64,000 nt of DNA from Pelagibius litoralis (lineage in GTDB: Bacteria > Pseudomonadota > Alphaproteobacteria > Kiloniellales > Kiloniellaceae), in contig NZ_JAAQPH010000007.1 in NCBI RefSeq assembly GCF_011683915.1, positions 1 to 64,000 of the forward strand, in the 5' to 3' direction. Of this stretch, positions 1,557-21,975 are shown piece after piece. A program made the position numbers and the translations under genes. Position 1 is the stretch's first letter. Each line of letters opens with the position of its first letter. Under the pieces are notes generated by a model that was not told the DNA's origin, did not search any database, and was given only the letters and a program-made list of their open reading frames with translations.

Positions 1557-2204
1557 TTGCCCAAAGGGACCAAATCTGACGCAGAACTTGATTTCCTCAC
1601 CGCAATTGAGCATGGCTCGGTTGTTACGCAGGTTGCGCTCAAGCAGCATATCGGTGTGTCCGTCGGTCTGATCAACGCTCTGATGAAACGGGCCGTGAAC
1701 AAGGGCTATGTGAAGGTCTGCCAAGCGCCGTACCGGCGCTATGCTTACTATCTGACGCCTCAAGGGTTTCGGGAGAAGAGCCGTCTGGTCGCCAGGTATT
1801 TGGAGACATCGTTGTCATTCTTTCGCGAAGCCCGGGGCCAGTATGGGGAGATTTTCGAGAGAGCCCAGAAGATGGGGGTTAAGCGGCCGGTTTTGTTTGG
1901 GGGTGGTGAGCTTGCGGAAATCGCACTGCTGGCGGCTTCTGGGGCGGAAGAGACCGTTGTCGCAGTGGTCGATGCGCAAAAAGCGCCAGGACGCAGTCAT
2001 GGTGTCCCTGTCATAGCGGGGCTGGATGAGATCGCTTCGTTTGACGGTCTCGTCGTCACCGATGCCAGTTCGCCGCAAAGAATCTACGAACGCCTTCGCG
2101 AATCTTTTCCAGATGTGCCGATTTTTGCGCCGGCGTTGCTGCGGATCGTCTCAGACCGGGCGGATTTGATCGCGGCAACCCGCCGTGCGGAGGGCGGCTC
2201 GTGA
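1557..2204 (+). CDS. Winged-helix / Rossmann-domain regulator, EPS-associated MarR-like
   Basis: A 215-aa protein with two visible parts. Residues about 8-90 form a MarR-like winged helix (LKQHIGVSVGLINALMKRAV, then RRYAYYLTPQGF). Residues about 105-205 look like a Rossmann-type domain with a GGGELAEIALLAASG glycine motif and a DGLVVTD strand. It is clearly paralogous to the protein at 22473-23168, which precedes an RfaH-like gene. The N-terminal part resembles the EPS-associated MarR-type family found beside exopolysaccharide loci. The start is TTG: an in-frame stop lies at 1542 and the ATGs at 1541/1544 are in another frame. It may sense a nucleotide-sugar or dinucleotide through the C-terminal domain; that is inference. 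Confidence 0.75.
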   Translation: MPKGTKSDAELDFLTAIEHGSVVTQVALKQHIGVSVGLINALMKRAVNKGYVKVCQAPYRRYAYYLTPQGFREKSRLVARYLETSLSFFREARGQYGEIFERAQKMGVKRPVLFGGGELAEIALLAASGAEETVVAVVDAQKAPGRSHGVPVIAGLDEIASFDGLVVTDASSPQRIYERLRESFPDVPIFAPALLRIVSDRADLIAATRRAEGGS

Positions 2205-2739
2205 GCCCTTCCGCACAATCGTTCGCGGGTGCAAAGTCTCGTTGTGGTGATGTGGTGCCTTTCGACGACGTGCTTGACCTGTGTGAGTTCGCCATTCGAT
2301 AAGGCGCTCAAGCTAGGCTGCGGTCGATCTGGCTGGGCACTTCGGCTTAGTAACGGGTGTCCGTTAAAGGTGCGCGGGCAGTTCGAGCAATGGTCGTCGC
2401 TCCAGATCGGCAGTTGCATTCGCTACTGTGTTGGCGACATGGGTTGCAGCTAAGATTTAAACGGGTAGAAGCTGTACTTCACCCGAACGGCGGTAGCGTG
2501 TCTTGCTCGCATGAGAAGCCGGACAAAGTAATCATCAAAGATCGATGGCGTTGTTTGTGGCTTCTTGAAAGTGCGATCCTTGGCTGGTCTAGTTTGGGTA
2601 ACGTATTCCAGCTATTTGTTTAATCCCCTTCATCGCTGATTGACCTTTGCTAAGCGTTCCCAGGATGTTGGAGTTCGTGACAGCATGGTTGCGGTTTTGC
2701 CTTTGTTAAAAATGGAATCAACAGAGAAAACGGGCTGAC
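2205..2739 (+). other. Long noncoding leader of polysaccharide operon A
   Basis: A 535-bp stretch without a convincing gene; short open frames here have no family signature. It separates the first winged-helix gene from the FkbM gene and has lower GC than its surroundings. Its main content is the JUMPstart/ops-like sequence at 2464-2500, about 240 nt before the first gene. Such long untranslated leaders are typical of RfaH-controlled polysaccharide operons. No strong intrinsic terminator with a T-run is seen. Confidence 0.6.
2464..2500 (+). promoter_or_regulatory. JUMPstart-like sequence with ops element
   Basis: GGCGGTAGCGTG at 2489-2500 matches the ops core known from enterobacterial JUMPstart sequences, where RfaH is recruited to paused RNA polymerase. 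Upstream, GGTAG at 2464-2468 and GCTGT at 2471-2475 recall the GGTAGCTGT segment that precedes ops in the JUMPstart consensus, with slightly longer spacing. It is on the coding strand of the operon starting at 2740. An RfaH-like gene lies at 21976-22476. The 10-nt core also occurs once by chance antisense to a gene at 58857, so position and context carry much of the weight. Confidence 0.65.
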
Positions 2740-3432
2740 GTGACGTTTCCCCGACTACTTAGGCATGGATTAAGGCGGTGCTATCGCCGTCAGGCAAGGT
2801 GCTACTCAAGCATCCGGCTTGAGAAGGTCGGCAGCGACTATGGCGGTTGGGTTTTGCCGGTTGATCTGATCCAACCGGACTGGGTCTGCTATGCCGGTGG
2901 CGTCGGGGAAGACATTACTTTCGATCGTGAGATGATCGAGCGTTTTGGTTGCCGGGTATTTGCATTTGATCCGACGCCAAGGGCCGCCGCCCACGTCGAG
3001 CAGCATGCCGAGGGTCTCGGCAATTTCCGGTTCCTGCCCGTGGGGCTGTGGTCGGAGGATACTGTGCTGCGCTTCTATGCGCCGCGGGACCCGGCGCACG
3101 TTTCTCACTCTATTGTTAACCTGCAGGAAACTGACGCCTATTTCGAAGCGCCTTGTCGAACCGTATCGTCGCTGATGAGCGAACTTGGGCACAATAAAAT
3201 CGATCTGCTGAAAATCGATATCGAGGGCGCCGAGCACGAGGTGGTGCGGTCCATGTTTGCGCAGGGTGTTTTCCCGACGCTCTTGTGCATGGAAATCGAT
3301 CAACCGGCACCCCTGTTAGCAATTGCCTCGACGGTGAGGCGGGTTCGCAACGCTGGTTACAGGCTTGTCAGCGTTGACGGCTGGAATTTTACCTTCGTGC
3401 AGGCAGAGGCTCTGCCGCCGGGTACAGCTTAA
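2740..3432 (+). CDS. FkbM family methyltransferase
   Basis: A 230-aa SAM-dependent methyltransferase of the FkbM family, members of which O-methylate sugars in glycans and natural products. The family hallmark LLKIDIEGAEHEVVRSM is at about residues 155-171, and a SAM-site-like stretch (CYAGGVGEDITFDREMIERF) is near residue 50. The start is GTG at 2740. It is the first gene after the JUMPstart leader and ends 9 nt before the next gene, which has an AAGGAG ribosome site. Its likely role is to methylate a sugar in the product of operon A; the acceptor cannot be read from sequence. Confidence 0.8.
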   Translation: MTFPRLLRHGLRRCYRRQARCYSSIRLEKVGSDYGGWVLPVDLIQPDWVCYAGGVGEDITFDREMIERFGCRVFAFDPTPRAAAHVEQHAEGLGNFRFLPVGLWSEDTVLRFYAPRDPAHVSHSIVNLQETDAYFEAPCRTVSSLMSELGHNKIDLLKIDIEGAEHEVVRSMFAQGVFPTLLCMEIDQPAPLLAIASTVRRVRNAGYRLVSVDGWNFTFVQAEALPPGTA

Positions 3433-3441
3433 GGAGATGTG

Positions 3442-4536
3442 GTGAGCACTCCCGAGGTGTCGCTGCCAACGGACATTCGAATCACCTTCGGTATGATCGT
3501 CCTGAATGGCGAGCCTTTCCTGCGCTATAATCTGCGCGGGCTTTATCCCTATGCGCATGAGATCATTGTGGTTGAAGGTGCGGCGCCGGGTGCCTGCAAC
3601 ATAGCCGATCCGCAGGGGCACTCGCGGGATGGAACTCTGGCCATCTTGCGGCGTTTTAAGGAGGAGGAGGACCCTGAAGACAAGCTGATCATCGTGACCG
3701 CCGAAGATGAAGGCTATCCGGACGGATTCTGGCCAGGCGAGAAGGACGAACAAAGCCGCGCCTATGCGAAGCGGGCCTCCGGTAATTACCTCTGGCAGGT
3801 CGACGTCGATGAGTTTTACAGATCCGAAGATATCGAAACCGTCATCGCCTTGTTGCACGGCGAAGCGGACATTACCGCTGTCAGCTTCAGGCAGATAACG
3901 TTCTGGGGGGGCTTCGACTATACCGCTGAGGGTTGGTACCTGCGTCGCGGCGCGGCGACCTATCACCGCCTGTTCCAGTGGGGCCCCGGTTTTGACTATG
4001 TTTCCCATCGGCCGCCGACAGTCCATGATGACCGGGCGCGCGATCTGAGGCAGCTTCGCTGGTTTGACGACAGAGCAATGGCCGCTCGTGGAATCTATCT
4101 CTACCACTACTCCTTGCTGTTGCCGAAGCAGGTAGAGGAGAAGTGTGACTACTACCAGAATGCAGAATGGGCACAGCGGGTAGGGGCCCTTGCATGGGCA
4201 CAACAGGTGTTCGGCGAACTGCGCCGACCCTTCCGGGTCCACAATATGTACCGCTATCCAAGCTGGTTGGAGCGCTACCGCGGTGATCATCCGCAGCAAA
4301 TCCTGCAGATGCGAAGCGATATTGTTGACGGGCGCCTGCCTGTCGAACTGCGGCGCAGCGATGATATCGAGCGGCTACTGAACTCAATTTGGTATCCGGC
4401 CGCGCGATTCTTCGTCAAACAGGCCAGTGTAGTGGACCTCGCAGTATACCACCTGCTGTGCGGGATGCGGAAATACCGCTTTCTGCACAGGCCGTTAAGT
4501 GCGCTAAGGCGTTTGGTCCGGCGCTGGGCTTTTTGA
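3442..4536 (+). CDS. Glycosyltransferase family 2-like protein
   Basis: A 364-aa cytoplasmic protein beginning with a GT-A-type fold: ITFGMIVLNGEPFLRYNLRG, then HEIIVVEGA, and a metal-binding DVDEFY at about residue 118. This pattern fits GT2-like glycosyltransferases and related glycan-processing proteins. AAGGAG at 3431-3436 lies 5 nt from GTG 3442 and only 2 nt from the tandem GTG at 3439, so 3442 is preferred. The stop overlaps the next gene's start by one base (TGATG). Donor and acceptor sugars are unknown. Confidence 0.75.
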   Translation: MSTPEVSLPTDIRITFGMIVLNGEPFLRYNLRGLYPYAHEIIVVEGAAPGACNIADPQGHSRDGTLAILRRFKEEEDPEDKLIIVTAEDEGYPDGFWPGEKDEQSRAYAKRASGNYLWQVDVDEFYRSEDIETVIALLHGEADITAVSFRQITFWGGFDYTAEGWYLRRGAATYHRLFQWGPGFDYVSHRPPTVHDDRARDLRQLRWFDDRAMAARGIYLYHYSLLLPKQVEEKCDYYQNAEWAQRVGALAWAQQVFGELRRPFRVHNMYRYPSWLERYRGDHPQQILQMRSDIVDGRLPVELRRSDDIERLLNSIWYPAARFFVKQASVVDLAVYHLLCGMRKYRFLHRPLSALRRLVRRWAF

Positions 4537-5921
4537 TGAGGTCCGGGTTGAACCGTGAGAGCCTGAAGGTCTTGACAGTCAGCGCTGCCGACGAGGGGGG
4601 CGGGGCGGAAAAGATAGCCATGACGCTGTTTCGTGCGCTGCGCGCCAGCGATCACATGTCATGGATGGCGGTCGGGCGACGGAAAAAGGCAGACCCGGAT
4701 ATCTTCACGATCCCGGACACTGCCTGGAAAGAGGCCCTGCTCGATTGGGTAAGCCCAGCAATTGCGGGGCGCCTAGGGGAGGCGCGGTTTCGCCGGGCAC
4801 TTCTGCAATTGACCAATCCCCGGTTTCTCTTGGATCGGCTGCGTGGCCGTGAACCTTTTCACTACGCCGGCACAATGCGGCTGCTAGACCTGCCGCCCGA
4901 GCGCCCCGACGTCCTGCACTGTCACAACCTGCACGGTGGTTACTTCGATCTGCGCGAACTTGCCAGGCTCGGCAGCGAACTACCCGTGGTGCTCACGCTC
5001 CATGACGAGTGGACGTTCACAGGGCACTGCGCCTATACGTTGGGTTGCGAGCGCTGGCGCAACGGCTGTGGCCAGTGTCCGCATCTGGATGTCTATCCGG
5101 CTATTCGAAGGGATGGCTCAGCCGCCAATTGGGCAGCCAAGCGCGCCATCTTCAATTCAAGCCGGCTGTATGTCGCGACCCCCTCACGCTGGCTTATGGA
5201 GCGGGTAAAGGACTCGGTTTTGGCGAACGCTATTGTCGAAGCGAAGGTGATACCCAATGGCATTGATCTTGGTGTGTTCAAACCCGGCAATCGGGCCGAA
5301 GCGCGCCATCGGCTTGGCTTGCCCGCAGATGTGTTGATCCTGCTGTTCACGGCGAACCGAGCTCGTGTCAGCCCGTTCAAAGATTATGTGACGGTGCGCG
5401 CTGCGGCGCTGGAGGTCGCGCGCGTTCTGCCACAGCGCCGTGTTCTGCTGCTGGCTCTTGGCGATGCCGGACCTGACGAGAAGGTGGGCGACACTGAAAT
5501 TCGCTTCGTGCCTTATCAGAGCGAAGAAGGTACTGTTGCGTCATACTACCTTGCGGCGGATGTTTACTTGCACGCTGCACATGCCGACAATTTCCCGACA
5601 ACAATCCTGGAAGCTAGCGCCTGCGGATTGCCGGTGGTGGCGACTGCCGTGGGCGGTATCCCGGAACAGATCGATTCGTTGGACTATCATGGGCTTAGAG
5701 AAGGCGCTGGTTCTGGCGACAATGCGGAAAAGGCTACGGGGGTCTTGGTTCCTCCGGGTGACAGTATGGCAATGGCGGAGGCCGTGAGGTTGCTTCTGGA
5801 GGCGCCGAACCTACGTACCCGATTGTCGCGCAACGCGGCCGAAAGGGCGCAACGGGAATGGTCCGAAGTGCGTATGGTGGAGGCTTACCTAGATTGGTAT
5901 CGCCAGATTTTGAGAGCGTGA
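4536..5921 (+). CDS. Glycosyltransferase family 4
   Basis: A 461-aa GT-B glycosyltransferase. The N-terminal half contains LHCHNLHGGYFDLREL and VVLTLHDEWTFTGHCAY, typical of WcaC/capsule-type GT4 enzymes, and a Cys-rich CERWRNGCGQCPHL patch. The C-terminal GT4 domain has VIPNGIDLGVFKP and the donor-site ExxxCGLPVVAT (EASACGLPVVATAVGGIPEQ). The frame is open 49 codons further upstream, but the ATG at 4536 overlaps the previous stop (TGATG), indicating translational coupling. It probably adds a sugar to the operon A repeat unit; specificity is unknown. Confidence 0.85.
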   Translation: MRSGLNRESLKVLTVSAADEGGGAEKIAMTLFRALRASDHMSWMAVGRRKKADPDIFTIPDTAWKEALLDWVSPAIAGRLGEARFRRALLQLTNPRFLLDRLRGREPFHYAGTMRLLDLPPERPDVLHCHNLHGGYFDLRELARLGSELPVVLTLHDEWTFTGHCAYTLGCERWRNGCGQCPHLDVYPAIRRDGSAANWAAKRAIFNSSRLYVATPSRWLMERVKDSVLANAIVEAKVIPNGIDLGVFKPGNRAEARHRLGLPADVLILLFTANRARVSPFKDYVTVRAAALEVARVLPQRRVLLLALGDAGPDEKVGDTEIRFVPYQSEEGTVASYYLAADVYLHAAHADNFPTTILEASACGLPVVATAVGGIPEQIDSLDYHGLREGAGSGDNAEKATGVLVPPGDSMAMAEAVRLLLEAPNLRTRLSRNAAERAQREWSEVRMVEAYLDWYRQILRA

Positions 5922-5970
5922 TCTCCACTACGGTCGAGGGCGCAGTGAAACCACAAGGCAGGGTTCGAAG

Positions 5971-6924
5971 TTGGTAGGGTTTTCCATCATTACGCCGGTA
6001 TTGAATATGGCGGGCACGATACGTGACTGTATTGAGAGCGTCGCATGCCAAATTGATGATGTTGAAGCGGTCCAACACATCATAGTAGATGGTGGGTCTG
6101 ACGATGGCACGCTGGACGTTATCTCGGACTATCCACATATCGAACTGATACATGAACCAGCACCTGGAATCTATGTAGCGATGAACCGAGGGATTGCAGC
6201 CGCGCGACACGAGGTCGTCGGCATAGTGAATGCTGACGATCTTTTGGAGATCGGCGCTCTGGGTGTCGTATCTGGGGTGCTCGAGGCAAACCCTCGAGTA
6301 CAAATCGTAGCCGGTCTGGCGGTTGTGGAACGTCTCCACGACGGTGACCGAAAATTTGTGCGGATCGCGCCTAGCCGTGGACACAAGAGTCAAAGCTGGG
6401 ATCTACTCTTTCACGGGTCGATGCCCACCAATGCCTATTTTTTTAGGCTTTGTGTATTCAAAGAGAATGGGTCCTTCAATGTCGACTTTGCCGTCTGTTC
6501 AGACAGAGAGTTGCTGATCAGATTCAAGCTGGCAGGAATTCTGACATTGCCAGTGAAGCGGATACTATACCGATATTTGGCACATGAAGGGTCAACAACG
6601 CTCAACGCCGAACGTCGGCATGATGTGCAGATGTGCAACGAGCGTATTGCTATTGCAGAAAGCTATCTTGCGAAAGGGCAGCCGTCATCGTCTGTGGTTC
6701 GTCGATTCCGCGAATGGATCGCTGCCGAACGGGCACGAGTTATGATGGCTAGATCAAGGGCCGGAGAATGGCGTTTGGCTTGGCAGGAGGCGCAGATGGG
6801 ATTAAAAGCCTCTACACAGGGGTTCCTCGTATTTCTTCTCAGAAGAGCGGTGGCAATCCCTACCGCTCGTGCCAGAAGATGGCCCGCGACCCTGTCCTGT
6901 GCCTGTCGCAAGTTTTTTGCATAG
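5971..6924 (+). CDS. Glycosyltransferase family 2 (WcaE-like)
   Basis: A 317-aa GT-A enzyme. It opens with FSIITPVLNMAGTIRDCIES, followed by HIIVDGGSDDGTLDVI and PGIYVAMNRGIAAARHEVVGIVNADD, which carries the DxD-like NADD and resembles colanic-acid WcaE-type transferases. The start is a TTG at 5971 with weak purine-rich sequence upstream; no better in-frame start is seen. Codon use looks less GC-rich than in the manC gene that follows, which may mark separate acquisition. The last ~78 bases were checked as a possible start for the next gene and rejected in favour of 6947. Confidence 0.8.
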   Translation: MVGFSIITPVLNMAGTIRDCIESVACQIDDVEAVQHIIVDGGSDDGTLDVISDYPHIELIHEPAPGIYVAMNRGIAAARHEVVGIVNADDLLEIGALGVVSGVLEANPRVQIVAGLAVVERLHDGDRKFVRIAPSRGHKSQSWDLLFHGSMPTNAYFFRLCVFKENGSFNVDFAVCSDRELLIRFKLAGILTLPVKRILYRYLAHEGSTTLNAERRHDVQMCNERIAIAESYLAKGQPSSSVVRRFREWIAAERARVMMARSRAGEWRLAWQEAQMGLKASTQGFLVFLLRRAVAIPTARARRWPATLSCACRKFFA

Positions 6925-6946
6925 CGGTCGAAACAGCGGGCTGAGA

Positions 6947-8389
6947 ATGTTATCCCAAACCCAGACCATACACCCGGTTCTCCTCTGCGGTGGCAGTGGT
7001 ACCCGTCTCTGGCCTCTGTCACGGGCGCTCTATCCCAAGCAAGTCCTGAAGCTCGAGTCCGAAGAGGCCTTGATAATTCAAACTGCCCGCCGGGCGCAGG
7101 GCAAATGCTTCACGGCGCCTCTCGTTATCTGCAACGAGGAACACCGGTTCTTGATTTCTAGGCTGCTTCAGGAAGCCGACATAACGCCGTCGGGCGTCGT
7201 GTTGGAGGCGGAGGGACGGAACACCGCACCGGCCGCAGCCGTCGCCGCGCTCTTCGCCTTGAACCGGGCTGCGGAGCGGGAAGATCCCCTGCTGCTCTTA
7301 CTGCCCTCGGATCATGCGATTCCCGATGGAGAGGCTTTCCAGAGCTGTGTTTCAAAGGGGGTTGAAGCCGCGCAAGATGGCCGGATCGTTACCTTCGGCA
7401 TAAAGGCGAGTCGAGCAGAGACCGGTTATGGCTATATTGAGATAGACGCCGCCGCCGCCTGCATCTCGGCACCGGTGGAGGTGCTTCGCTTTGTCGAGAA
7501 ACCCGATGAGGTGACCGCGGAGGAGTTCTTACAGGGCGGGCGGCACTGCTGGAACAGCGGCATTTTTCTTTGCGGCGCCAAGACTTTGCTCAGTGAAATG
7601 GAGCGTTTTGCGCCGGACGTGTTAAGCGCTGCCCGGACGGCATTTGAACAGGGTAGACAGGATCTGGATTTTTTCAGGCTTGATGCGGCAGCCTATCATC
7701 GATCACCCAACATCTCTATTGACCATGCAGTCATGGAACGGACGGAGAGGGCTTCCGTACTTGCTGTCGATTTCGAATGGAGCGACATCGGCTCGTGGCA
7801 GGAGCTTTGGTCGCGGTCACCGAAAGATGAGGCGAATAACGCTCTCGTTGGAGACGTCATCGTCCAGGCTACCACCGGCAGCTTCGTCTACGGCGCATCG
7901 AAGGGCTTGACCGTTGTTTCCGGCCTGGAGGATGCGGTGGTCATCAATACGGAAGACGTGGTTCTGGTAACCAAGCGAAGTGGCGCAAGCCCGATCAAGG
8001 CAGTACTGGATCGCTTGGCCGCAGAGGGGCGCAGCGAACATCTCTCTCATGCCAGTGTCTATCGTCCTTGGGGGTCGTATAAGATTTTGGTGCACGGCAC
8101 GCAGTTTCAGGTCAAGGAAGTGAACGTGAATGCCGGGGCGGCACTCTCGCTCCAATATCACGAACACCGTTCCGAGCATTGGATCGTCGTTGAGGGTGTT
8201 GCCGAGGTGACCCGCGATTCGGATACCTTCGAGCTGAACCGGAGCGAGTCGACCTTCATCGCCCCTGGGCAGGTTCATCGTCTGATCAACTCAGGTGCCA
8301 AGGCGTTGAAAATCATCGAGATTCAATGTGGTGACTACCTGGGTGAAGATGACATCGTGCGCCTGGAGGACGACTATGGCCGGCGATAG
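6947..8389 (+). CDS. manC: Mannose-1-phosphate guanylyltransferase / mannose-6-phosphate isomerase
   Basis: A 480-aa type II bifunctional enzyme making GDP-mannose, the precursor for Gmd and Fcl downstream. The N-terminal nucleotidyltransferase has LLCGGSGTRLWPLSR at about residues 12-26 and FVEKPDE near 180. The C-terminal cupin isomerase has YRPWGSY, LQYHEHRSEHWIVVEG and FIAPGQVHRL. Length is typical for ManC/CpsB/XanB. The ATG at 6947 gives the canonical N-terminus; an upstream in-frame ATG at 6869 lies inside the preceding gene. Confidence 0.93.
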   Translation: MLSQTQTIHPVLLCGGSGTRLWPLSRALYPKQVLKLESEEALIIQTARRAQGKCFTAPLVICNEEHRFLISRLLQEADITPSGVVLEAEGRNTAPAAAVAALFALNRAAEREDPLLLLLPSDHAIPDGEAFQSCVSKGVEAAQDGRIVTFGIKASRAETGYGYIEIDAAAACISAPVEVLRFVEKPDEVTAEEFLQGGRHCWNSGIFLCGAKTLLSEMERFAPDVLSAARTAFEQGRQDLDFFRLDAAAYHRSPNISIDHAVMERTERASVLAVDFEWSDIGSWQELWSRSPKDEANNALVGDVIVQATTGSFVYGASKGLTVVSGLEDAVVINTEDVVLVTKRSGASPIKAVLDRLAAEGRSEHLSHASVYRPWGSYKILVHGTQFQVKEVNVNAGAALSLQYHEHRSEHWIVVEGVAEVTRDSDTFELNRSESTFIAPGQVHRLINSGAKALKIIEIQCGDYLGEDDIVRLEDDYGRR

Positions 8390-8393
8390 AAAC

Positions 8394-8435
8394 GGCCGAA
8401 TTCTGAGGAGAGGGCCAGGCAGGGCACATTCGGCC
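8394..8435 (+). other. Hairpin between manC and next glycosyltransferase
   Basis: GGCCGAAT at 8394-8401 pairs with ATTCGGCC at 8428-8435, followed by TTTC. The 8-bp stem encloses a 26-nt purine-rich loop. It could modulate read-through or mRNA stability inside the operon, but the T-run is short and it may be chance. Confidence 0.35.
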
Positions 8436-8461
8436 TTTCGTCAGCCAAGACCGTTGATGGG

Positions 8462-9379
8462 GTGGATTTGAAAGTCTCTGTGCAGATTGCGACGCGCGAC
8501 CGTTTCGAACCGCTATGTCGCGCGATCTCAAGCGTCTTCGACCAGGACTACGATAACTTCGAGATTATCGTCCTGGATGATGCGAGCGAAGCGTCGGACA
8601 TCTGCGATCGCCTTCGCAGTAAGTTCGACGATCCCAGGCTTCGTTGTTTTCGAAATACCGAGTGGTCGGGTGTTTCCGCCGTGCGGTCGCGCATGATGGA
8701 TCTTGGGGACGGCGAGGTCTATTGCTCGATTGACGACGATGGCGCCTTTGCTCACGCATCCTGCCTATCTCGTATCGTGGATGCCTTTCTCGCCGATCCG
8801 AAGCTTGGATTGTTGGCCGGAAAGATCAAGGACTACCGCGACGGCCAGGAGCGATTGCTGCTGCCTTTCGGCAAACGAGATCTGATGCGCTCGCCAGAGC
8901 TTCCGGAAGGACGTCACAGGGTTTCCTATTTCCTCGCGGGCTGCTATGCGATCCGGCGCAGCGTTGTCGAGAAGTGCGGCGCTTACCGTCCGGAAATGAT
9001 GTACGGGGAGGAGGAGCTCGACATCTCCTACCGTGTTATTGCCGCCGGCTACGACATTGTTTACGAGCCGGAGATCGTAGCCTACCATTGGCCGGAGCCT
9101 TCAGCCTTCAAAATGGATCAACCGCGCAGCGAGATCTATTTTCAGATCAAGAATAGATTTCACCTCGCTTATGCTTACCTGCCGGCTCGATTTATACCTT
9201 CCTATATCGCCGTCTGGTTGGTCCGATATCTGGTTACCTGTCTGCGACGGGGTCTTGTCTCCGACTACTTGGTTGGCGTAAAGGACGGGGTCCTAGGCAT
9301 GCGTCGGGGACCTCGCCAAACGTTGGGCAATGACGCAGTGACCTATCTGCGAAGTAACTATGGGCGTCTTTGGTACTGA
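8462..9379 (+). CDS. Glycosyltransferase family 2
   Basis: A 305-aa GT-A glycosyltransferase. It starts VSVQIATRDRFEPLCRAISSVFDQDYDNFEIIVLDDAS and carries a metal site CSIDDDGAF near residue 90, then YGEEELDISYRVIAAGY, an acceptor/base motif common in GT2 (ED-like). The C-terminus (about residues 230-300) has amphipathic segments that may sit on the membrane. The start is GTG at 8462. It lies between manC and fcl, so it may use GDP-mannose or GDP-fucose, but the donor cannot be assigned. Confidence 0.8.
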   Translation: MDLKVSVQIATRDRFEPLCRAISSVFDQDYDNFEIIVLDDASEASDICDRLRSKFDDPRLRCFRNTEWSGVSAVRSRMMDLGDGEVYCSIDDDGAFAHASCLSRIVDAFLADPKLGLLAGKIKDYRDGQERLLLPFGKRDLMRSPELPEGRHRVSYFLAGCYAIRRSVVEKCGAYRPEMMYGEEELDISYRVIAAGYDIVYEPEIVAYHWPEPSAFKMDQPRSEIYFQIKNRFHLAYAYLPARFIPSYIAVWLVRYLVTCLRRGLVSDYLVGVKDGVLGMRRGPRQTLGNDAVTYLRSNYGRLWY

Positions 9380-9503
9380 TGGTCTTCTTCTCGCGAGAGA
9401 ATAGTCAAAGCGCAGGCGGCACGCGCATGCCCGGTTTTGGCGATCTAACTTTAACTATACAAGCTGTTCGCAGGATCTCTGTGGACGAACGACAGGCAAT
9501 GCA

Positions 9504-10454
9504 TTGATATACGATCTGAAGCAGAAACGGGTTTGGGTTCCGGGCCATCGCGGCATGGTCGGGCAGGCCATCTGCCGTCGTCTGGAACGTGAGAACTGTA
9601 TATTGTTGAGCGCCTCGCGTGATGAGCTCGATCTAACACGGCAGGCCGATGTCGAAGCCTGGGTTCAGCGGGAACGTCCGCAGGCGATCTTCCTTGCGGC
9701 GGCGAAGGTCGGCGGCATTCATGCCAACGACAGTCTGCCGGCGAGCTTCCTCTACGACAACCTGGCGATCGAGCTGAATATCGTCGAAGCGGCCCGCAGA
9801 GCCAATGTCGAGAAGCTATTGCTGCTCGGTTCTTCCTGTATCTATCCGCGTGAGGCGCCCCAGCCGATGAGCGAAAAGGCTCTGCTCACCGGCCCGCTCG
9901 AACCAACGAACCAGTGGTACGCGATTGCCAAGATCAGTGGTATCATGCTCTGCCGGGCTTATCGGCGGCAGTATGGATGCGATTTCATCTCGGCAATGCC
10001 CACAAACGTCTATGGGCCGGGCGATAACTTTCATCCCGAGTACAGTCACGTGCCTGCAGCCCTGCTCCGCCGTTTCCATGAGGCCAAGGAAGGCGGCGCC
10101 GTTTCGGTTTCGGTCTGGGGCACCGGCCGCCCGAGACGCGAATTTCTCTATGTCACCGATCTTGCCGATGCCTGTGTGTTTCTTATGAAGAACTACTCGG
10201 CGGAACAGCACATCAACGTTGGCACGGGCCAAGAAATTTCAGTTGGTGATTTTGCCCAAACCATTGGTTCGATTGTAGGCTATAAGGGTGAGATTACTTT
10301 CGATACTTCGCGTCCTGACGGGGCTCTGCGGAAGCTATTGGATGTAACCGCACTTAGCGCTCTGGGCTGGACGGCGCAGACGTCTCTGCGCGATGGGTTG
10401 GCTTCTTACTATGATTGGTTCCTGAACAACCATGCAGAACTCCGCCGCGGCTAG
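9504..10454 (+). CDS. fcl: GDP-L-fucose synthase
   Basis: Converts GDP-4-keto-6-deoxymannose into GDP-L-fucose by 3,5-epimerisation and NADPH reduction. The 316-aa protein shows VWVPGHRGMVGQAI (Rossmann), AAAKVGGIHAN, LLLGSSCIYPR, the YAIAKISG catalytic Tyr-x3-Lys, and PTNVYGPGDNFHPEYSHV, all Fcl/WcaG signatures. The start appears to be TTG at 9504, since the nearby ATG is out of frame. It precedes gmd; many clusters have the reverse order. Confidence 0.92.
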   Translation: MIYDLKQKRVWVPGHRGMVGQAICRRLERENCILLSASRDELDLTRQADVEAWVQRERPQAIFLAAAKVGGIHANDSLPASFLYDNLAIELNIVEAARRANVEKLLLLGSSCIYPREAPQPMSEKALLTGPLEPTNQWYAIAKISGIMLCRAYRRQYGCDFISAMPTNVYGPGDNFHPEYSHVPAALLRRFHEAKEGGAVSVSVWGTGRPRREFLYVTDLADACVFLMKNYSAEQHINVGTGQEISVGDFAQTIGSIVGYKGEITFDTSRPDGALRKLLDVTALSALGWTAQTSLRDGLASYYDWFLNNHAELRRG

Positions 10455-10488
10455 ACACTTAGGTACCGAATTGATGGCAGGCTGATAG

Positions 10489-11550
10489 ATGGAAAAGCAT
10501 GCGCTCATAACCGGCGTGACGGGGCAGGATGGGGCCTATCTGGCCGAGCTGCTCCTGGCGAAGGGCTATCGGGTCTGGGGTGTCAAACGCCGCGCGTCGT
10601 CGTTCAACTCTGCCCGGGTGGATCATCTTTACTCTGATCCGCATGTTAACGACCCCAAGTTTCGCCTGGTCTACGGCGACATGACCGACGCGACGAATCT
10701 GATACGTCTGATCCAGGAGACGCAACCGGACGAGATATACAATCTTGCGGCTCAGAGCCATGTTCATGTCAGCTTTGAAACGCCCGAGTATACGGCGAAT
10801 TCTGACGCTCTGGGCACGCTTCGTGTTCTCGAAGCGATCAGGATCTTGAAACTGGGGGATCGTACGCGCTTCTACCAGGCTTCGACCTCGGAGCTCTATG
10901 GCAAGGTTCAGGAAACCCCTCAGAGCGAAACCACGCCCTTCTATCCGCGCTCGCCCTATGCGGCCGCGAAGCTGTATGCCTATTGGATCACTGTGAACTA
11001 CCGCGAAGCCTACGGCATGCATGCCTCGAACGGGATCCTGTTCAATCACGAGAGTCCCCTGCGTGGCGAAACCTTCGTGACCCGTAAAATCACCCGGGCA
11101 GTTGCGGCCATTAAGCTTGGGCTTCAGGATCGCGTTTATCTCGGCAATCTCGACGCGAAACGCGATTGGGGGCATGCGCGGGATTATGTCGAAGGGATGT
11201 GGCGCATCGTGCAGCAGGAGGCTCCCGACGACTATGTGCTGGCAACCGGCGTGGCTTTCAGCGTCCGCGAGTTTGTGGAGTTCGCCTTTGCCGAGGTTGG
11301 CCAGAAAATTGAATGGGAGGGCGACGGCGTCGAGGAAAAAGGCCGGGACCCCGAGTCCGGCAAGGTTCTCGTCGAAATTGATCCGCGCTATTTCCGGCCG
11401 ACCGAGGTCGATCTGCTGATGGGAGACCCGACCAAGGCAAAAGAGAAACTCGGCTGGTCCGCAACGACCAAGCTGAACGATCTGGTGGCCGAGATGGTTC
11501 GGGCGGATCTCGATGCAGTCGCCAAAGAGCACAACCGCCGAAGTCTCTAG
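10489..11550 (+). CDS. gmd: GDP-mannose 4,6-dehydratase
   Basis: First step of GDP-fucose synthesis, using GDP-mannose from ManC. The 353-aa protein has [57 protein letters not shown] and the [12 protein letters not shown] catalytic Tyr-x3-Lys, all diagnostic of Gmd. The start is ATG 10489, 34 nt after fcl. Its TAG stop (11548-11550) lies inside the palindromic repeat that ends the block, so the repeat abuts the coding sequence directly. Confidence 0.95.
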
Positions 11551-15399: not shown

Positions 15400-16440
15400 C
15401 TAAGTCAGCAGATCCCAACTCAGCGGTGTTCCGCGCTTTATGGCGTTTTTTGCCGGTTTGCCTAAGAAGTCTCTCAGGTGCTTGGGCGGCAGGCCGTGGC
15501 CGGGTCGAATAGCGCGCAGGTTCTTTTCGGTGAAGGGCTGACCAGCGGCGATGTCCTCGACCACATAGAGCGAGCGGCGGAAGGCGGCATTGCCCAGTTC
15601 GCTCGGCTTGCGGGCGTAGCCGGCCTGGCCCAGGGCCGCCCAGGTCGTACGGCAGGTCTCACAGAGCTGCTGCAGTTCCTGCGGTTCAAGTGAAAAGGCG
15701 GCATCGGGGCCGCCGTCGGCGCGGTGCAGGGTGAAGTGTTTCTCGATGACATGGGCGCCCAGGGCGACGGCGGCGATGGGAACCTCCGGCCCCAGGGTGT
15801 GGTCCGACAGGCCGGAGACCGCGCCGAAGCGTTTGGTCAGGTCGGACAGGGTGCGAAGATTGACCTCTTCCGGGGGCGTCGGGTAGCCGCTGATGCAGTG
15901 CAGCAGCACGATCTCTCCGGAGCCGTGGGCCCTAGCGGTTTCCATGGCCTCGTCGATTTCGTCGAGATTGGCCATGCCGGTCGAAATGATCATCGGTTTG
16001 CCGGTCTTCGCCACCTTCTCGATCAACGGCAGGTCGGTGACTTCGAAGGAGGCGATCTTGTAAGCCGGCGCACCGAGGCCTTCGAGAAAGTCGACCGCCG
16101 TTGCATCGAAGGGGCTGCTGAACACGGCGAGGCCGAGTTCTCCTCCTTTGGCGAAGATCGCCTCGTGCCACTCCCAGGGCGTGTGTGCCCATTCATACAG
16201 CTCATAGAGGGTTTTTCCGTCCCACAAACCGCCTTCGATACGAAAGTCTTGACCATCGTGATCGATGGTCATGGTGTCGGCGGTATAGGTTTGCAGCTTT
16301 ACGGCATCGGCGCCGGCCGAGGCGGCGGCCTCGACCAGTGCCAGGGCGCGCTCCAACTCGCCGTTATGGTTGCCCGACAATTCCGCGATGATATAGGGCG
16401 GCTGCCCGGGGCCGATCTGGCGGCCAGCAATGTCGATCAT
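15400..16440 (-). CDS. pseI: Pseudaminic acid synthase
   Basis: Condenses 2,4-diacetamido-2,4,6-trideoxy-altrose with phosphoenolpyruvate to pseudaminic acid. The 346-aa protein has the NeuB-type barrel (YIIAELSGNHNGELERAL, DAVKLQTYTADTMTID, FSSPFDATAVDFLE, HCISGYPTPPEEVNL, GLSDHTLG, VIEKHFTLHR) and a C-terminal SAF domain from about residue 285 (YVVEDIAAGQPFTEKNLRAI). The LQTYTADTMTID wording fits PseI rather than NeuB. ATG 16440 is chosen, 40 nt after the pseG stop; the open frame upstream overlaps pseG. Confidence 0.92.
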   Translation of the reverse strand: MIDIAGRQIGPGQPPYIIAELSGNHNGELERALALVEAAASAGADAVKLQTYTADTMTIDHDGQDFRIEGGLWDGKTLYELYEWAHTPWEWHEAIFAKGGELGLAVFSSPFDATAVDFLEGLGAPAYKIASFEVTDLPLIEKVAKTGKPMIISTGMANLDEIDEAMETARAHGSGEIVLLHCISGYPTPPEEVNLRTLSDLTKRFGAVSGLSDHTLGPEVPIAAVALGAHVIEKHFTLHRADGGPDAAFSLEPQELQQLCETCRTTWAALGQAGYARKPSELGNAAFRRSLYVVEDIAAGQPFTEKNLRAIRPGHGLPPKHLRDFLGKPAKNAIKRGTPLSWDLLT

Positions 16441-16480
16441 CTTCTCAAAGATCCTGGTGACTTTGCATTGTAGCGGCGTT

Positions 16481-17968
16481 TCAGGGGTAGTTATACAACA
16501 GTCCCCCGGCGCCGGGTCCGTATTGGGCACGTTGGAACAAGGCGACAGAGGCTTCGTTTTCCGGCAGGACCTCGGCGACGATCACTGCCTTCTGCTGCCA
16601 GCGGCGGGCAAACCGCAACGCCTCCTCGGCGACACGCTGACCGCGATGCTCCGGCGAAATCAGGATCGAGACCTCAAACGCCGGCGTTTGCGGTGCTGCT
16701 GCTGGTGCCGCGACCGGGTCGAGGCGTAGAACGCCTGCTGGTTTCCTGTTCAGAGTGATCATTGTCAGCAGGCATTCAGGGTCGGCAAGGCGCGCGGTGA
16801 ACCATTGGTGGTGCTCTTTAGCGCTGGGGACCTGTGGGTTACGGGCGAAGCGGCGGCTTGTCGGGTGCCTCTGCCACTCCAGGATCAGGCCTTCGTCATT
16901 GGCCGTGGCCAGGCGCAAGGCCACAGGCCTGCCGTTTTTGGCCTGTCCTGGGGGCACAAGCTCAAGGCCCAGGCGGTCACAGCCGCGTCCGTCGCAGATC
17001 CTGGCCGCTTTGGCAGCCATATCCGACAGCGCATCACCGTCGTCAGCGAGGTCGCGCAGTGCGCCCGCGATCCGATCGGCCAGCGCATCGCGTGGTCCGG
17101 AGATCACGCGGGCGGCGCCTGTCGTGGCAATCCTTTCGGCGATCAGGCGCTGATTCTCCGCGACCACCAACATCAGGCTCGGCAGGCCGAGACAGCAACG
17201 TTCCCAGGTCGAGGTGCCGGCGGCTCCAATGGCCAAATCAGCCCGGGCCATCAGCTCCGGCATGTTGGCCACATCGACATGCAGCCGCACTTCCTTACCC
17301 ATGGTCTCGATCTGCGCGCTTACAGCCGACCGATGCGGCGCAGCCGCCCCGAGCACCACATCGACGGCCAGGGGAAGGCCGCTTTCGGCGATGGCCTGGA
17401 GCGCGACGAGGCTATGGTTGTCGGGATCGGTGGCGCCGATGCTGACGAGAATGCGATTCAGTCTGCCGGCGCCGGTTCTGCGCGCGAGGCTGGTTTGACG
17501 ATTGCCGGCGAAAGCCGGTCGCAAAAGCGCGTAGTCACAGCCGGTGAGCAACCGGGTTCCCGGCGGCACGAGCCCGGCGTAATCATCTGATGCGCGGCCC
17601 GGTGTTTGGTCGAGAAGAACATCGCAATCGTGCGGGCGGTCGGCCAGGTCGTCGATCACCAGGATATTCTTTGCCCAGCCCCGGCATCCTGCTTCCCAAC
17701 CCGCATCGCGTTCGTAGTGGTCGACGATGAGCCAGTCGGCGCCGTCAGGCCAGTTTTTCCGGATGTTCTCTGCCTCGGCAGCCATAATGCTGTCCAACAC
17801 CAGGATGTCTTCGCCGGCGAGAGCCGGGATAATCTCCAATGCTGTTGCATTGACGGCGAAACCGCACTGCCAGCCTAGTTTTTCAAGGGATTTCGCGAGA
17901 GTCAGACATCGCATGACATGACCACCGCCCAGGGCGGCAGAGGCGTCGGCGCGAAAGACGGTTCGCAT
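16481..17968 (-). CDS. pseG: PseG hydrolase fused to a GNAT (PseH-like) acetyltransferase
   Basis: A 495-aa fusion. Residues about 1-340 are PseG, which removes UDP from UDP-2,4-diacetamido-2,4,6-trideoxy-altrose: FRADASAALGGGHVMRCLTLA, WLIVDHYERD, DQTPGR, ILVSIGATDPDN, IGAAGTSTWERCCLGLP. From about residue 350 a GNAT domain follows (RLATANDEGLILEWQRHPTSR, HHQWFTARL, ISPEHRGQRVAEEAL). No separate pseH is seen, so this domain probably performs the N4-acetylation. ATG 17968 is one base after the pseF stop; ATG 17983 would overlap it. Confidence 0.9.
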   Translation of the reverse strand: MRTVFRADASAALGGGHVMRCLTLAKSLEKLGWQCGFAVNATALEIIPALAGEDILVLDSIMAAEAENIRKNWPDGADWLIVDHYERDAGWEAGCRGWAKNILVIDDLADRPHDCDVLLDQTPGRASDDYAGLVPPGTRLLTGCDYALLRPAFAGNRQTSLARRTGAGRLNRILVSIGATDPDNHSLVALQAIAESGLPLAVDVVLGAAAPHRSAVSAQIETMGKEVRLHVDVANMPELMARADLAIGAAGTSTWERCCLGLPSLMLVVAENQRLIAERIATTGAARVISGPRDALADRIAGALRDLADDGDALSDMAAKAARICDGRGCDRLGLELVPPGQAKNGRPVALRLATANDEGLILEWQRHPTSRRFARNPQVPSAKEHHQWFTARLADPECLLTMITLNRKPAGVLRLDPVAAPAAAPQTPAFEVSILISPEHRGQRVAEEALRFARRWQQKAVIVAEVLPENEASVALFQRAQYGPGAGGLLYNYP

Positions 17969-17969
17969 C

Positions 17970-18698
17970 CTAGGGACTCTCATTTCCGGCCGCTGCGGCC
18001 CGCTCGGCGGCCATGGCGAGATGGATCTCGGCCTCGCGGAAGTCTTCCTCATTGTCGATGTCGAATGACCGCTCCCGCGGCATTACATAGCCGACCAACG
18101 GTTGAGCTAGGTAACTTCCGGCCGTGCGAAACGCCTTCACGTCCAGAACGTGAACGGCTCCGTTGGGGCGAAAAACCTTCGGTAGGGTCTTGGTCGGCTG
18201 TTCGAGATATTGTTGAAACATCGGCGTCAGGCCGGCCCCGGCATCCATCTGAAAAGCTGCAAAGGGCGTATGGGAAAATTCGGCAACGCTCATTACAAAA
18301 GGTCGGTCTCGCTCAGTGAAAAGCTCATAGGCTCCGCGAACATCTTCAGCGGACCTAAAGGGGCAGGTGGGCAGTAGAATGACGATCGTTTCATAGGTGT
18401 CGCCGGCGTCCTCCAACGCTTCCAAAGCGTGCAGAGCGACATCGTCGGCCTCGGCGGGGTCGCGGGCCAATTCCGGCGGTCGCATAAAGGGAACGTCGAT
18501 ACCAAGGGCCCGCGCCTGGTCGGCGATGGCCTCGTCCTCGGTGGAGAGCACCAGGCGATCGATGACGCCACTGTCCCAAGCCGCTTCGGCGGCCCAGGCG
18601 ATCAGGGATTTGCCGCCCAGGTTACGGACGTTTTTCCTGGCCAGCCGCGTGGAGCCGCCTTTGGCGGGAATGAAGCCGAGTGTTGAGTTCTTTGCCAA
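17970..18698 (-). CDS. pseF: Pseudaminic acid cytidylyltransferase
   Basis: Activates pseudaminic acid as CMP-Pse. The 242-aa protein has the CMP-sugar synthetase start FIPAKGGSTRLARKNVRNLGGKSLIAW, then LVLSTEDEAIADQA, ILLPTCPFRSAEDV and SFDIDNEEDFREAEI, which fit PseF/NeuA-type enzymes. The start is probably TTG at 18698, with AGGAG about 8 nt upstream. It sits between the methylase and pseG in one minus-strand operon. Confidence 0.9.
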   Translation of the reverse strand: MAKNSTLGFIPAKGGSTRLARKNVRNLGGKSLIAWAAEAAWDSGVIDRLVLSTEDEAIADQARALGIDVPFMRPPELARDPAEADDVALHALEALEDAGDTYETIVILLPTCPFRSAEDVRGAYELFTERDRPFVMSVAEFSHTPFAAFQMDAGAGLTPMFQQYLEQPTKTLPKVFRPNGAVHVLDVKAFRTAGSYLAQPLVGYVMPRERSFDIDNEEDFREAEIHLAMAAERAAAAGNESP

Positions 18699-18731
18699 AA
18701 TGAGCTCCTGGTGCCGTAACGGACTCGGTCG

Positions 18732-19358
18732 TTATGGCTTCTCGAAAAGCCACCAGATTGTGTTGTCGCTGTTGTCCATTGGCTTCCATAGAAAGCCGTA
18801 GTCGCGAACCCGCAGATCGGGATGGCGTTCCAGGTAGTAGCTGCCGAAGTCGCGCTTGAAGAGGTGCCCTTCCATGCCGCGGTACTCGATCTCTACCGGG
18901 TTCGGCGAGAAGTACTCGATACAGGCGATGTAGCGACTGGAAACCCGCACGATCTCGTCGACCACGGAGGCGAGGTTGGGCGGTGCGACATGGATTAGTA
19001 CACCGCAGGTAAAGACAAGGTCGATGCTGTTGTCTTCGAAGGGCAATTCTCCGCCATGTCCGTTGCGGATGTCGGCTGCGCTGAGTGCCGGATTGCTGCG
19101 TGCTATTTCGCAAACCTGCGCATTGGGCTCGACGCCATGCAACTCCGGCAGATAGCCGCTGAGGGCGATCAGGTTCCGGCCGGTGTTGCAACCGACCTCC
19201 AGTGCGCTCTGCGGCGCCGGGGAGATCGCCGTTTTCAGGATGCGGCCCCAATAACGCCGCGTCGCCCGAAGGTTCTCCTCGGAGATCCGGTTGCCGCTGC
19301 GCTCGGCATATTCATAGCCGAAGTCCGAAGACCAGAGTTCAACCTGTCTGTTCGTCAT
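18732..19358 (-). CDS. Pseudaminic acid biosynthesis-associated methylase
   Basis: A 208-aa class I SAM-dependent methyltransferase: EVGCNTGRNLIALSGYLPELHGVEPN at about residues 53-78 and LPFEDNSIDLVFTCGVLIHV near 110. A family of this kind is known only as a companion of Pse genes and is thought to methylate pseudaminic acid or a precursor. Its position between pseC and pseF supports this. The ending GSYYLERHPDLRVRDYGFLW is also family-like. The exact substrate and timing are unproven. Confidence 0.82.
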   Translation of the reverse strand: MTNRQVELWSSDFGYEYAERSGNRISEENLRATRRYWGRILKTAISPAPQSALEVGCNTGRNLIALSGYLPELHGVEPNAQVCEIARSNPALSAADIRNGHGGELPFEDNSIDLVFTCGVLIHVAPPNLASVVDEIVRVSSRYIACIEYFSPNPVEIEYRGMEGHLFKRDFGSYYLERHPDLRVRDYGFLWKPMDNSDNTIWWLFEKP

Positions 19359-19492
19359 GGCCTCTATCCTTCAAACACTCTCAACACACTATGCTGTATC
19401 AACAATGAAGCCCTATGTACGCAGCGCCGCTTGTCGTGGTGCCCGCGGCGGGCGGGTATGATAGCGAGCTACGTGGAAAGCCCTCGTTTCCG

Positions 19493-20716
19493 TCAAACGT
19501 TCAGGCAGTCGTGCAGCGCGTCAACGACCCGTTCCACATCATCCGTCTCCATTCCGGGGAAAAGCGGAAGGGAGAGCGTGCGCGCGTAATAGCTTTCGGC
19601 GCCCGGCAGGCTGATCGTACCGTACCGTTCTTGATAGTAAGGCTGCAGGTGAACGGGAATGTAGTGTACCTGTGTCCCGATACCTTGTGCCGTCAGTTGT
19701 TGCATGAGGGCAGCGCGGCTGATGCCCGCGGCTTCAAAGTCGATCAGGACGGCGTAGAGATGCCAGGCAGGCTCGCAGTTCTGCGACCGGGTGATCGGGC
19801 GTACCAGGGGCGCGAAGTCTGAGAGCAGGCGGTCATAGTGTTCGGCCAATGCCCGGCGCTTGGTGACGAAGCGCGTCAGTTTTTTGATCTGACTGAGGCC
19901 GAGCGCACATTGGATGTCGGTCACCCGGTAATTCAGTCCCATCTCCGGCATCTCATAATACCAGGGATTGATCTTGCCTTGCTCATCGTAGGCAAGCGCC
20001 GTATTGCGTAATTGCTCCGGGTCGCGAGTCATGCCGTGCGAGCGAAATCGGGCCAGGCGCTCAGCCAGCTCTCTGCTGTTCGTCGTGACCGCGCCGCCTT
20101 CACCCATGACGATGGTTTTCACGGGGTGAAACGAGAAGGTGGTCATCTCCGTCAGCCGTCCGTCGCCGATCGGTTTTGCGGCGTCGTTACCCTTAAGATA
20201 GCGGCTGCCAATGGCATGAGCGGCGTCATCGATTATGGCGAGATCCTGCGCCTTGGCGAGGGCGCTTATCTTGGCAAGATCGGTGCACTGTCCGGCCAGG
20301 TGTACCGGCATGACCGCTTTCACCGGCCCGTCGGCGCGGGCCAGTGCATCAGTCAGGTGTTCGTTGTCCATCAAGCCGCTGTGCGGACAGCAGTCGGCGA
20401 AAACGACCTCGGCGCCGGTCAGGCGCACGGCGTTGGCGGTCGCCAGAAAGGTTACGCTGGGCACGATGGCACGGTCGCCGGGTCCAAGGTCCAGAGCAAG
20501 GGCCGCAAGGTGAAGCGCCGCCGTTCCGTTCGCGCAGGCAATGGCGTAGCGGGCCTCTGTAACTTCGCAGATCGCGGCCTCGAATGCCGCTACGGCGGGG
20601 CCGGTGGTCAGCCAGTCGCCACGCAGAACGGCTGTGACGGCCGCGATATCGTCTTCTTCGATAAGCTGCCGGCCGTAGGGAAGGAAGGACATCGCTGGGT
20701 GGGTTACTTCTCGCAT
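19493..20716 (-). CDS. pseC: UDP-4-keto-sugar aminotransferase PseC
   Basis: PLP enzyme of the DegT/DnrJ/EryC1 family that aminates the 4-keto product of PseB. The 407-aa protein has CANGTAALHLAALALDLGPGD, PVHLAGQCTDL, IIDDAAHAIG and the PLP lysine in TFSFHPVKTIVMGEGG (K200). HYIPVHLQPYYQERYG near the end is also typical. ATG 20716 overlaps pseB by 13 nt; ATG 20692 is an alternative that keeps all motifs. Confidence 0.9.
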   Translation of the reverse strand: MREVTHPAMSFLPYGRQLIEEDDIAAVTAVLRGDWLTTGPAVAAFEAAICEVTEARYAIACANGTAALHLAALALDLGPGDRAIVPSVTFLATANAVRLTGAEVVFADCCPHSGLMDNEHLTDALARADGPVKAVMPVHLAGQCTDLAKISALAKAQDLAIIDDAAHAIGSRYLKGNDAAKPIGDGRLTEMTTFSFHPVKTIVMGEGGAVTTNSRELAERLARFRSHGMTRDPEQLRNTALAYDEQGKINPWYYEMPEMGLNYRVTDIQCALGLSQIKKLTRFVTKRRALAEHYDRLLSDFAPLVRPITRSQNCEPAWHLYAVLIDFEAAGISRAALMQQLTAQGIGTQVHYIPVHLQPYYQERYGTISLPGAESYYARTLSLPLFPGMETDDVERVVDALHDCLNV

Positions 20717-21741
20717 TCCGCGATCATTTTAGTCAGCCGCTCGGCGCAGAGCCAGTCGCCGTTGATGTTGCTGGCAAAGCGAAAACCGGCCTCAACGGGT
20801 TTGGCGCCCGAGTTCGGGAATTGTTGATGCAACTGCTCCCAGAACTCCGGAAGGATCATATAGCGGTCCGGCAACTCATAAGTGCTGCGGGCATCGTCTT
20901 CGGTGATCAGGACCTCGTGGATCTTCTCGCCCGGTCGGATCCCGACGACTCGGTGTGGCAGGTCGGGCGCCATGAAACGAGCGAGTTCGGTAACCTTCAT
21001 GCTGGGAATCTTGGGCACGAAAATCTCGCCGCCTTTCATCAAGGCGAGGCAGGAAAGAACGAAGTCCACGCCTTGCTGCAGGGTAATCCAGAAACGGGTC
21101 ATTTCCGCGTCAGTAATAGGCAGGCTGTCACAGTCCTCTTTGATCAGCTTGCGAAAGAAGGGAACGACACTGCCCCGCGATCCAAGGACGTTGCCATAAC
21201 GCACCACCGAAAACCGGGTGCCGATGGAGCCGCTCAGATTGTTGGCCGCAACAAAGATCTTGTCTGAAGCCAGCTTGCTGGCGCCGTAGAGATTGACCGG
21301 ACTGGCGGCCTTGTCGGTGGAGAGGGCGATGACCTGTTGGACGCCGCAGCTCAGTGACGCCCGCACCACGTTCTCAGCGCCGATAACATTCGTTTGTATG
21401 CATTCGAAGGGATTGTACTCGGCCGCCGTAACATGTTTCAGGGCCGCGGCATGGACGACCACATCAACCTCGCGCAGTGCCAACTCAAGGCGGCTGGCAT
21501 CGCGGACATCGCCAATGAAATAGCGAATTGCGGGGTACTGTTCCTTTGGGAACGCCTGACCCATTTCGTACTGTTTCAGTTCGTCGCGCGAGAAGACGAT
21601 CACCCGGCGCGGCTTATAGCGCTCCAGGGCCGTGCGGACGAACCTTTGTCCGAATGAGCCCGTGCCGCCTGTTATCAGGACCGATTTTCCGTCCAGGTTC
21701 AGGCACTCGGCCTCTGAGAATCTGTCTTCTTCCGACTTCAT
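20704..21741 (-). CDS. pseB: UDP-N-acetylglucosamine 4,6-dehydratase (inverting)
   Basis: First step of the Pse pathway: removes water from UDP-GlcNAc and inverts C5. The 345-aa protein has SVLITGGTGSFGQRFVRTAL, VIVFSRDELKQYEM, HAAALKHVTAAEYNPFE, ALSTDKAASPVNLYGASKL (Tyr-x3-Lys) and a conserved RPGEKIHEVLI. The ATG at 21741 gives the usual family N-terminus; an upstream TTG at 21810 only adds a non-conserved tail. It lies 234 nt after the RfaH-like gene in the same direction. Confidence 0.93.
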   Translation of the reverse strand: MKSEEDRFSEAECLNLDGKSVLITGGTGSFGQRFVRTALERYKPRRVIVFSRDELKQYEMGQAFPKEQYPAIRYFIGDVRDASRLELALREVDVVVHAAALKHVTAAEYNPFECIQTNVIGAENVVRASLSCGVQQVIALSTDKAASPVNLYGASKLASDKIFVAANNLSGSIGTRFSVVRYGNVLGSRGSVVPFFRKLIKEDCDSLPITDAEMTRFWITLQQGVDFVLSCLALMKGGEIFVPKIPSMKVTELARFMAPDLPHRVVGIRPGEKIHEVLITEDDARSTYELPDRYMILPEFWEQLHQQFPNSGAKPVEAGFRFASNINGDWLCAERLTKMIAECEK

Positions 21742-21975
21742 AGTCTGTCGGTTATGCGCCGAATTCCTTAACAAATAGTATGAATCATGAATTAACCGGT
21801 AAGGAGACAAGCTTATGCGGCTGATTTTCCGCTGGTTGACAGGGCGATCAAGGTCGACAGCGTTGGTTAACGGCGGAATCGCTGATCAATTCCCGTCGTG
21901 CCGCCTGACTGCCTATCTGGATGACTGGCCTGCTCAAACAAGTATTGGACACCAGACCTTCCGGCACGACGGAAC

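Follow-up and report, generated by a model that had tools for sequence, protein, structure and literature searches.

The leader of a polysaccharide operon in Pelagibius litoralis contains an RNA hairpin and, directly after it, an exact ops sequence; the two form a unit that is conserved in Alphaproteobacteria and associated with genes for RfaH-like NusG paralogues. We propose, with a probability of about 0.78, that this unit is a two-part pause-and-recruit signal at which the RfaH-like paralogue would be recruited for antitermination through the sugar operon. RfaH-like genes in Alphaproteobacteria are already known, having been counted, with no signal given, as 18% of rfaH genes (PMC7593976); the new part is the signal, and no prior description of a hairpin + ops element was found in the open-licence literature searched. 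The following features were identified in the whole 64,000-nt stretch of DNA that was analysed (the window).

2457–2502, + strand: whole element (covariance model R1, 31.4 bits, E 5.8e-6)
2462–2485, + strand: hairpin CGGGT.A.GAAG-CUGUA-CUUCACCCG (RNA fold, covariation in relatives)
2478–2488, + strand: conserved 3' arm and linker TTCACCCGAAC (TCACCC..A invariant in seed copies)
2489–2500, + strand: ops element GGCGGTAGCGTG (exact match, predicted pause at U2499)
2740–11550, + strand: operon A, the predicted target (FkbM methyltransferase, glycosyltransferases, ManC, NDP-sugar epimerase, GDP-mannose 4,6-dehydratase)
21976–22476, − strand: RfaH-like NusG paralogue (NGN and KOW domains), the predicted reader of the element

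The ops sequence and its leader

The 12-mer GGCGGTAGCGTG, which the sequence-only reading had placed at 2489–2500, is indeed there, as the single zero-mismatch copy within the window and on the + strand. It lies in the intergenic gap between a MarR-like gene (1557–2204) and an FkbM-type methyltransferase gene (start at 2740). The same reading had described a long untranslated leader and a nine-kilobase sugar operon, and both descriptions hold: no + strand ORF of more than 88 amino acids covers the leader, which looks untranslated as far as the first gene at 2740, and sugar enzymes are encoded throughout 2740–11550. A scan of the leader for sigma-70 promoters and terminators returned nothing exceeding shuffles. 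Right after ops, the leader contains an ATG ORF of six codons (2511–2531, + strand; MRSRTK).

Counts of the 12-mer carry little information. In the window, GGCGGTAGNNT was observed once against 0.42 expected. Across the 6.03 Mb of the genome there are 8 occurrences of the degenerate 12-mer core GGCGGTAGNNTG and 25 of the reversed pattern. The genome-wide count of the core alone was rejected as proof, as the core is not enriched; it is uninformative in a genome of 62% G+C, and the question is therefore whether a longer unit is conserved. An antisense copy of the core at 58857 (GGCGGTAGCGCT), over which caution had rightly been advised, was rejected as a second element and attributed to chance, with neither a hairpin nor a TCACCC before it.

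A hairpin and ops form one conserved unit

The conserved unit comprises the hairpin and TCACCCGRAN-KGCGGTAGCRTG. In the window, the hairpin folds with −11.4 kcal/mol (4 of 200 shuffles were as good) and its 3' base lies 14 nt upstream of U2499, where the pause is predicted. Across copies, the distance from the end of the stem to the ops pause U, a site known from E. coli, is mostly 10–14 nt. This distance resembles the geometry of hairpin-stabilised (his-type) pauses.

When the sequences flanking rfaH-like genes of relatives were scanned (20 kb), a same-genus genome provided GGGTGAAGCCGGCTTCACCCGAACGGCGGTAGCGTG, which aligns to GGGTAGAAGCTGTACTTCACCCGAACGGCGGTAGCGTG in the window. This comparison identifies the GGTAG and GCTGT sequences as the 5' arm and loop of the hairpin rather than as JUMPstart blocks, the role that they had been given previously; they are present, but are mis-spaced relative to E. 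coli and unconserved in relatives. Across the order, TTCACCCGAACGGCGGTAGCGTG with up to 3 mismatches gave 12 matches in 63 genomes, compared with 0 for the reversed pattern. Most of the 12 follow an rfaH-like gene at a distance of about 100 bp. In all except one, an upstream arm can pair with the TTCACCC arm. One early match (GGCGGTGTCGTG, in G007:C8) was set aside as probably due to chance.

The hairpin covaries. With the register fixed on the inner TCACCCG stem, the base just before K is Watson–Crick paired in 55 of the 117 copies listed from an exact scan (see below), compared with 37 expected, a count that exceeds all 2000 permutations. Covariation was scored in two ungapped sets of copies with the same loop, because the MAFFT alignment of the hairpin misplaces the variable loop. 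The scores for these sets (21 and 22 copies) were 0.213 and 0.208, against 0.134 and 0.114 for shuffles; none of 500 shuffles reached the observed score and slid controls gave at most 0.109. Shuffle tests are inflated by relatedness, so it is the slid control that carries weight.

Distribution and target operons

The conservation that the sequence-only reading had suggested looking for in related genomes extends from the order to the class: a search based on the TTCACCCGAAC region, using TCACCCRRANNGCGGTAGCNT with one mismatch, yielded 54 matches in 51 of 385 genomes, against 4 for the reversed control. An exact scan of named genomes found at least 117 copies, nearly all listed ones being from Alphaproteobacteria (Methylocystis, Kiloniella, Pelagibius, Thalassospira, Bradyrhizobium, Rhodopseudomonas, Nitrobacter, Blastochloris and others). 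Although the search pattern did not cover it, the G in position 12 of ops is kept in 111 of the 117 listed copies. No element was found in a viral contig collection, and a protein scan of genome contigs for close relatives returned no loci. Greedy ORF calling placed 49 of the 117 listed elements 'inside' an ORF, many of these being antisense ORFs or ORFs with over-extended starts, and we therefore make no claim as to exact gene starts.

The element in the window was not part of the training set of covariance model R1, which detects two elements in total in the genome (6 Mb), each ahead of a polysaccharide operon. The second (C62:71893–71938) is about 40 nt ahead of an ABC-2 permease gene (polysaccharide exporter). 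In the nearest relative, the element directly precedes a family-2 glycosyltransferase gene, far from rfaH. The first genes behind copies encode mainly NDP-sugar epimerases/dehydratases, Polysacc_synt_2 proteins, DegT aminotransferases, ABC transporters and Wzz.

Three related MarR_EPS-like regulator genes recur in this genome. Those at 1557–2204 (+ strand), directly before the leader of operon A, and at 22473–23168 (− strand), directly before the rfaH-like gene, are 42% identical; the third, at about 12780–12180 (− strand) of locus L122, immediately precedes the second element and has in-frame stops. Behind the rfaH-like gene is a pseudaminic acid cluster (15400–21810, − strand) encoding PseI, a PseG–PseH fusion, a methylase, PseC and a PseB-like epimerase.

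Association with rfaH-like genes

The pattern that yielded the 117 listed copies was built without reference to rfaH, and 89 of these copies lie on the same strand as an rfaH-like gene, 35–188 nt past its stop codon; by chance, roughly 1% of the positions at those loci would have such a placement. Co-occurrence with this NusG paralogue, which had been put forward as a check, was observed: an rfaH-like gene is present in 41 of the 51 element-bearing genomes compared with 87 of 385 overall (Fisher P = 1e-21), and in 23 of 24 genomes with exact copies. Anchoring on rfaH instead, we found that 20 of 42 cases have GCGGTAGC in the 250 nt that follow and that none has the reversed or antisense 8-mer; 20 of 42 is a low estimate, because 17 of the 42 were fetched for lacking an adjacent element under the first pattern. 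In many of the genomes with rfaH-like genes (46 of 87), no element was found under the pattern with at most 1 mismatch. Some genomes have two rfaH-like genes with an element behind one or both (G032, contigs C24 and C27; G005, contig C8; G001, contigs C34 and C91).

In the window, element and rfaH-like gene are unlinked, about 19.5 kb apart and on opposite strands; here, we infer their pairing from relatives. Neither the window's rfaH-like gene nor its nearest relative (75% identical) has an element directly behind it, their elements being elsewhere, which indicates that the gene in the window would act in trans.

The RfaH-like protein

The gene at 21976–22476 (− strand) does encode an RfaH-like protein, as first suggested. 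To judge by its model score and its residues, the protein is not an RfaH in the strict sense. It scores 117.3 bits against TIGR01955, below the cut-off of 144.5, which is passed in none of the 385 class genomes. The nearest solved relative by sequence is E. coli RfaH (PDB 5OND, 6C6S), in which K10, H20, R23 and R73 read G5 and T6 of ops (PMC5995543). At these contact positions, the window protein has L10, N20, R23 and L73 (K10→L, H20→N, R73→L). Of 48 proteins of the alphaproteobacterial clade, 4 retain K10 and 5 have R or K at 73; in E. coli-type homologues (n = 24), K10 and R73 are each at least 90% conserved. These proteins group apart from the E. coli type (SH-aLRT 99); within their clade, H39, A40 and W66 are invariant and R41 is nearly so. 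With K10 and R73 missing, any reading of ops must differ from that by E. coli RfaH. AlphaFold2 modelling was set aside as a test for autoinhibition by a fold-switching, α-helical KOW domain: it gives the KOW domain of the window protein as a β-barrel (mean pLDDT 94), but an enterobacterial-type control run in the same way is likewise modelled as a β-barrel, with low confidence.

Relation to known systems

The JUMPstart RNA motif was described from Gammaproteobacteria only (PMC2864571). The alphaproteobacterial element shares with enterobacterial JUMPstart/ops the sequence GGCGGTAGCGTG, a stem-loop just upstream of it, a position in leaders of sugar-coat operons and an RfaH-type partner; the stem lies 12 nt from the pause U in E. 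coli JUMPstart and 10–14 nt here. In contrast, the hairpin is unrelated in sequence (with a conserved TCACCCGRA arm), and the element usually adjoins an rfaH-like gene whereas JUMPstart is unlinked. The Rfam JUMPstart model (RF01707) had no match at E ≤ 10 in window positions 2205–2800 and none at E ≤ 1 in nine relatives; the E. coli JUMPstart, as positive control, scored 61.1 bits. The earlier description of a complete JUMPstart is not supported, and the upstream blocks belong to a different hairpin. What stands of the proposed extension of RfaH–ops control to Alphaproteobacteria is ops in a sugar-operon leader, a matching paralogue and conservation; what is not supported is an RfaH in the strict sense, along with the complete JUMPstart.

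The paralogue resembles E. coli RfaH in its NGN and KOW domains and in the retention of Q24, T72, G74, R138 and L142, and differs in that K10, R73, E48 and the gate-loop HTT are replaced. Bacillus LoaP is likewise a NusG paralogue whose target has a leader RNA hairpin and a pause (PMC12691694), but it is Gram-positive and works without ops, its UNCG-type hairpin causes no pause and the pause is further downstream. The cis-acting 'monomorphic' RfaH homologues of a 2026 preprint are likewise encoded beside a putative target operon; they were treated as ops-independent, with targets set by operon length (PMC13015549), whereas here ops lies behind the gene.

Proposed mechanism and alternatives

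From these sequence features we infer pausing, recruitment and antitermination as successive steps. RNA polymerase would pause at the consensus ops site, K-GCGGTAGC-R-T|G, with the 3' edge of the RNA hairpin 10–14 nt (14 in the window) before the RNA 3' end. The hairpin, together with the ops loop exposed on the non-template strand, would mark the paused complex; the RfaH-like NusG paralogue (21976–22476) would then be recruited, remain on the polymerase and suppress premature (Rho-type) termination along the approximately 9-kb sugar operon. In most genomes that bear it, the predicted signal is just behind the rfaH-like gene and in the same direction, ahead of the adjoining polysaccharide operon.

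A possible alternative, to which we give some tentative credence, is that ops only pauses polymerase and that the paralogue is recruited in a LoaP-like manner by the RNA hairpin, not by non-template DNA. K10 and R73 have been lost while hairpin pairing persists and covaries, E. coli RfaH has nothing that corresponds to the family-specific invariant residues H39, A40 and W66, and LoaP binds and requires a leader RNA hairpin (PMC12691694). Against this, GCGGTAGC is conserved as strongly as in E. coli, including the G5–T6 read by RfaH, and the ops-pocket residues H/N20, R23, Q24, T72 and G74 are largely retained. LoaP residues E40 and R41 were reported in the reading of its RNA hairpin (PMC12691694); H39–A40 and R41 of the clade are near these positions by unaligned numbering, making them a candidate lead.

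That the element acts on the rfaH-like transcript alone, as a 3'-end stabiliser or attenuator, and not on downstream operons would fit the position of most of the 117 listed copies, about 50 nt past the rfaH stop codon. It is improbable given that, in the window and in the nearest relative, the element directly precedes a polysaccharide operon and lies far away from rfaH, and that the hairpin has no following U-tract. Also improbable is a reading of the inverted repeat as the DNA operator of a dimeric regulator, with ops adjacent by chance. A MarR_EPS-like protein could be that regulator, and in this genome such genes precede the rfaH-like gene as well as both leaders, but the inter-arm spacer is variable (mostly 3–8 nt), compensatory and G–U changes occur in one arm opposite a near-invariant partner, and the spacing to ops is constant within a few nucleotides. 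A chance 12-mer match in a G+C-rich genome, which the unenriched core would allow, is refuted by the recovery of the full unit (54 versus 4 reversed in 385 genomes) together with its linkage to and co-occurrence with rfaH.

Implications

Beyond the pause-and-recruit reading of this one leader, we regard as evenly balanced the wider proposition that the RfaH-like clade across Alphaproteobacteria uses hairpin + ops, with recognition of ops independent of K10 and R73. Were this the case, recruitment guided by ops would predate, or be independent of, the residues with which the enterobacterial protein reads DNA, contradicting the proposed late joint acquisition of those residues with ops recognition; and cis-linked RfaH homologues, described as ops-independent (PMC13015549), would not be signal-free. 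It is an open question how NusG paralogues besides E. coli RfaH locate their targets (PMC7593976). The element offers a defined, testable signal for the whole clade, with which the regulon could be listed for any genome of the Alphaproteobacteria. It is also a natural case in which ops is retained and the ops-reading residues of E. coli are gone.

Outside the class, perfect 12/12 ops sequences occur 60–310 nt behind rfaH-like genes at eight loci (L290, L295, L301, L302, L309, L316, L322 and L323). These copies have a different upstream sequence, with no match to Rfam JUMPstart, and the linkage of ops to rfaH-like genes may be much wider than the class.
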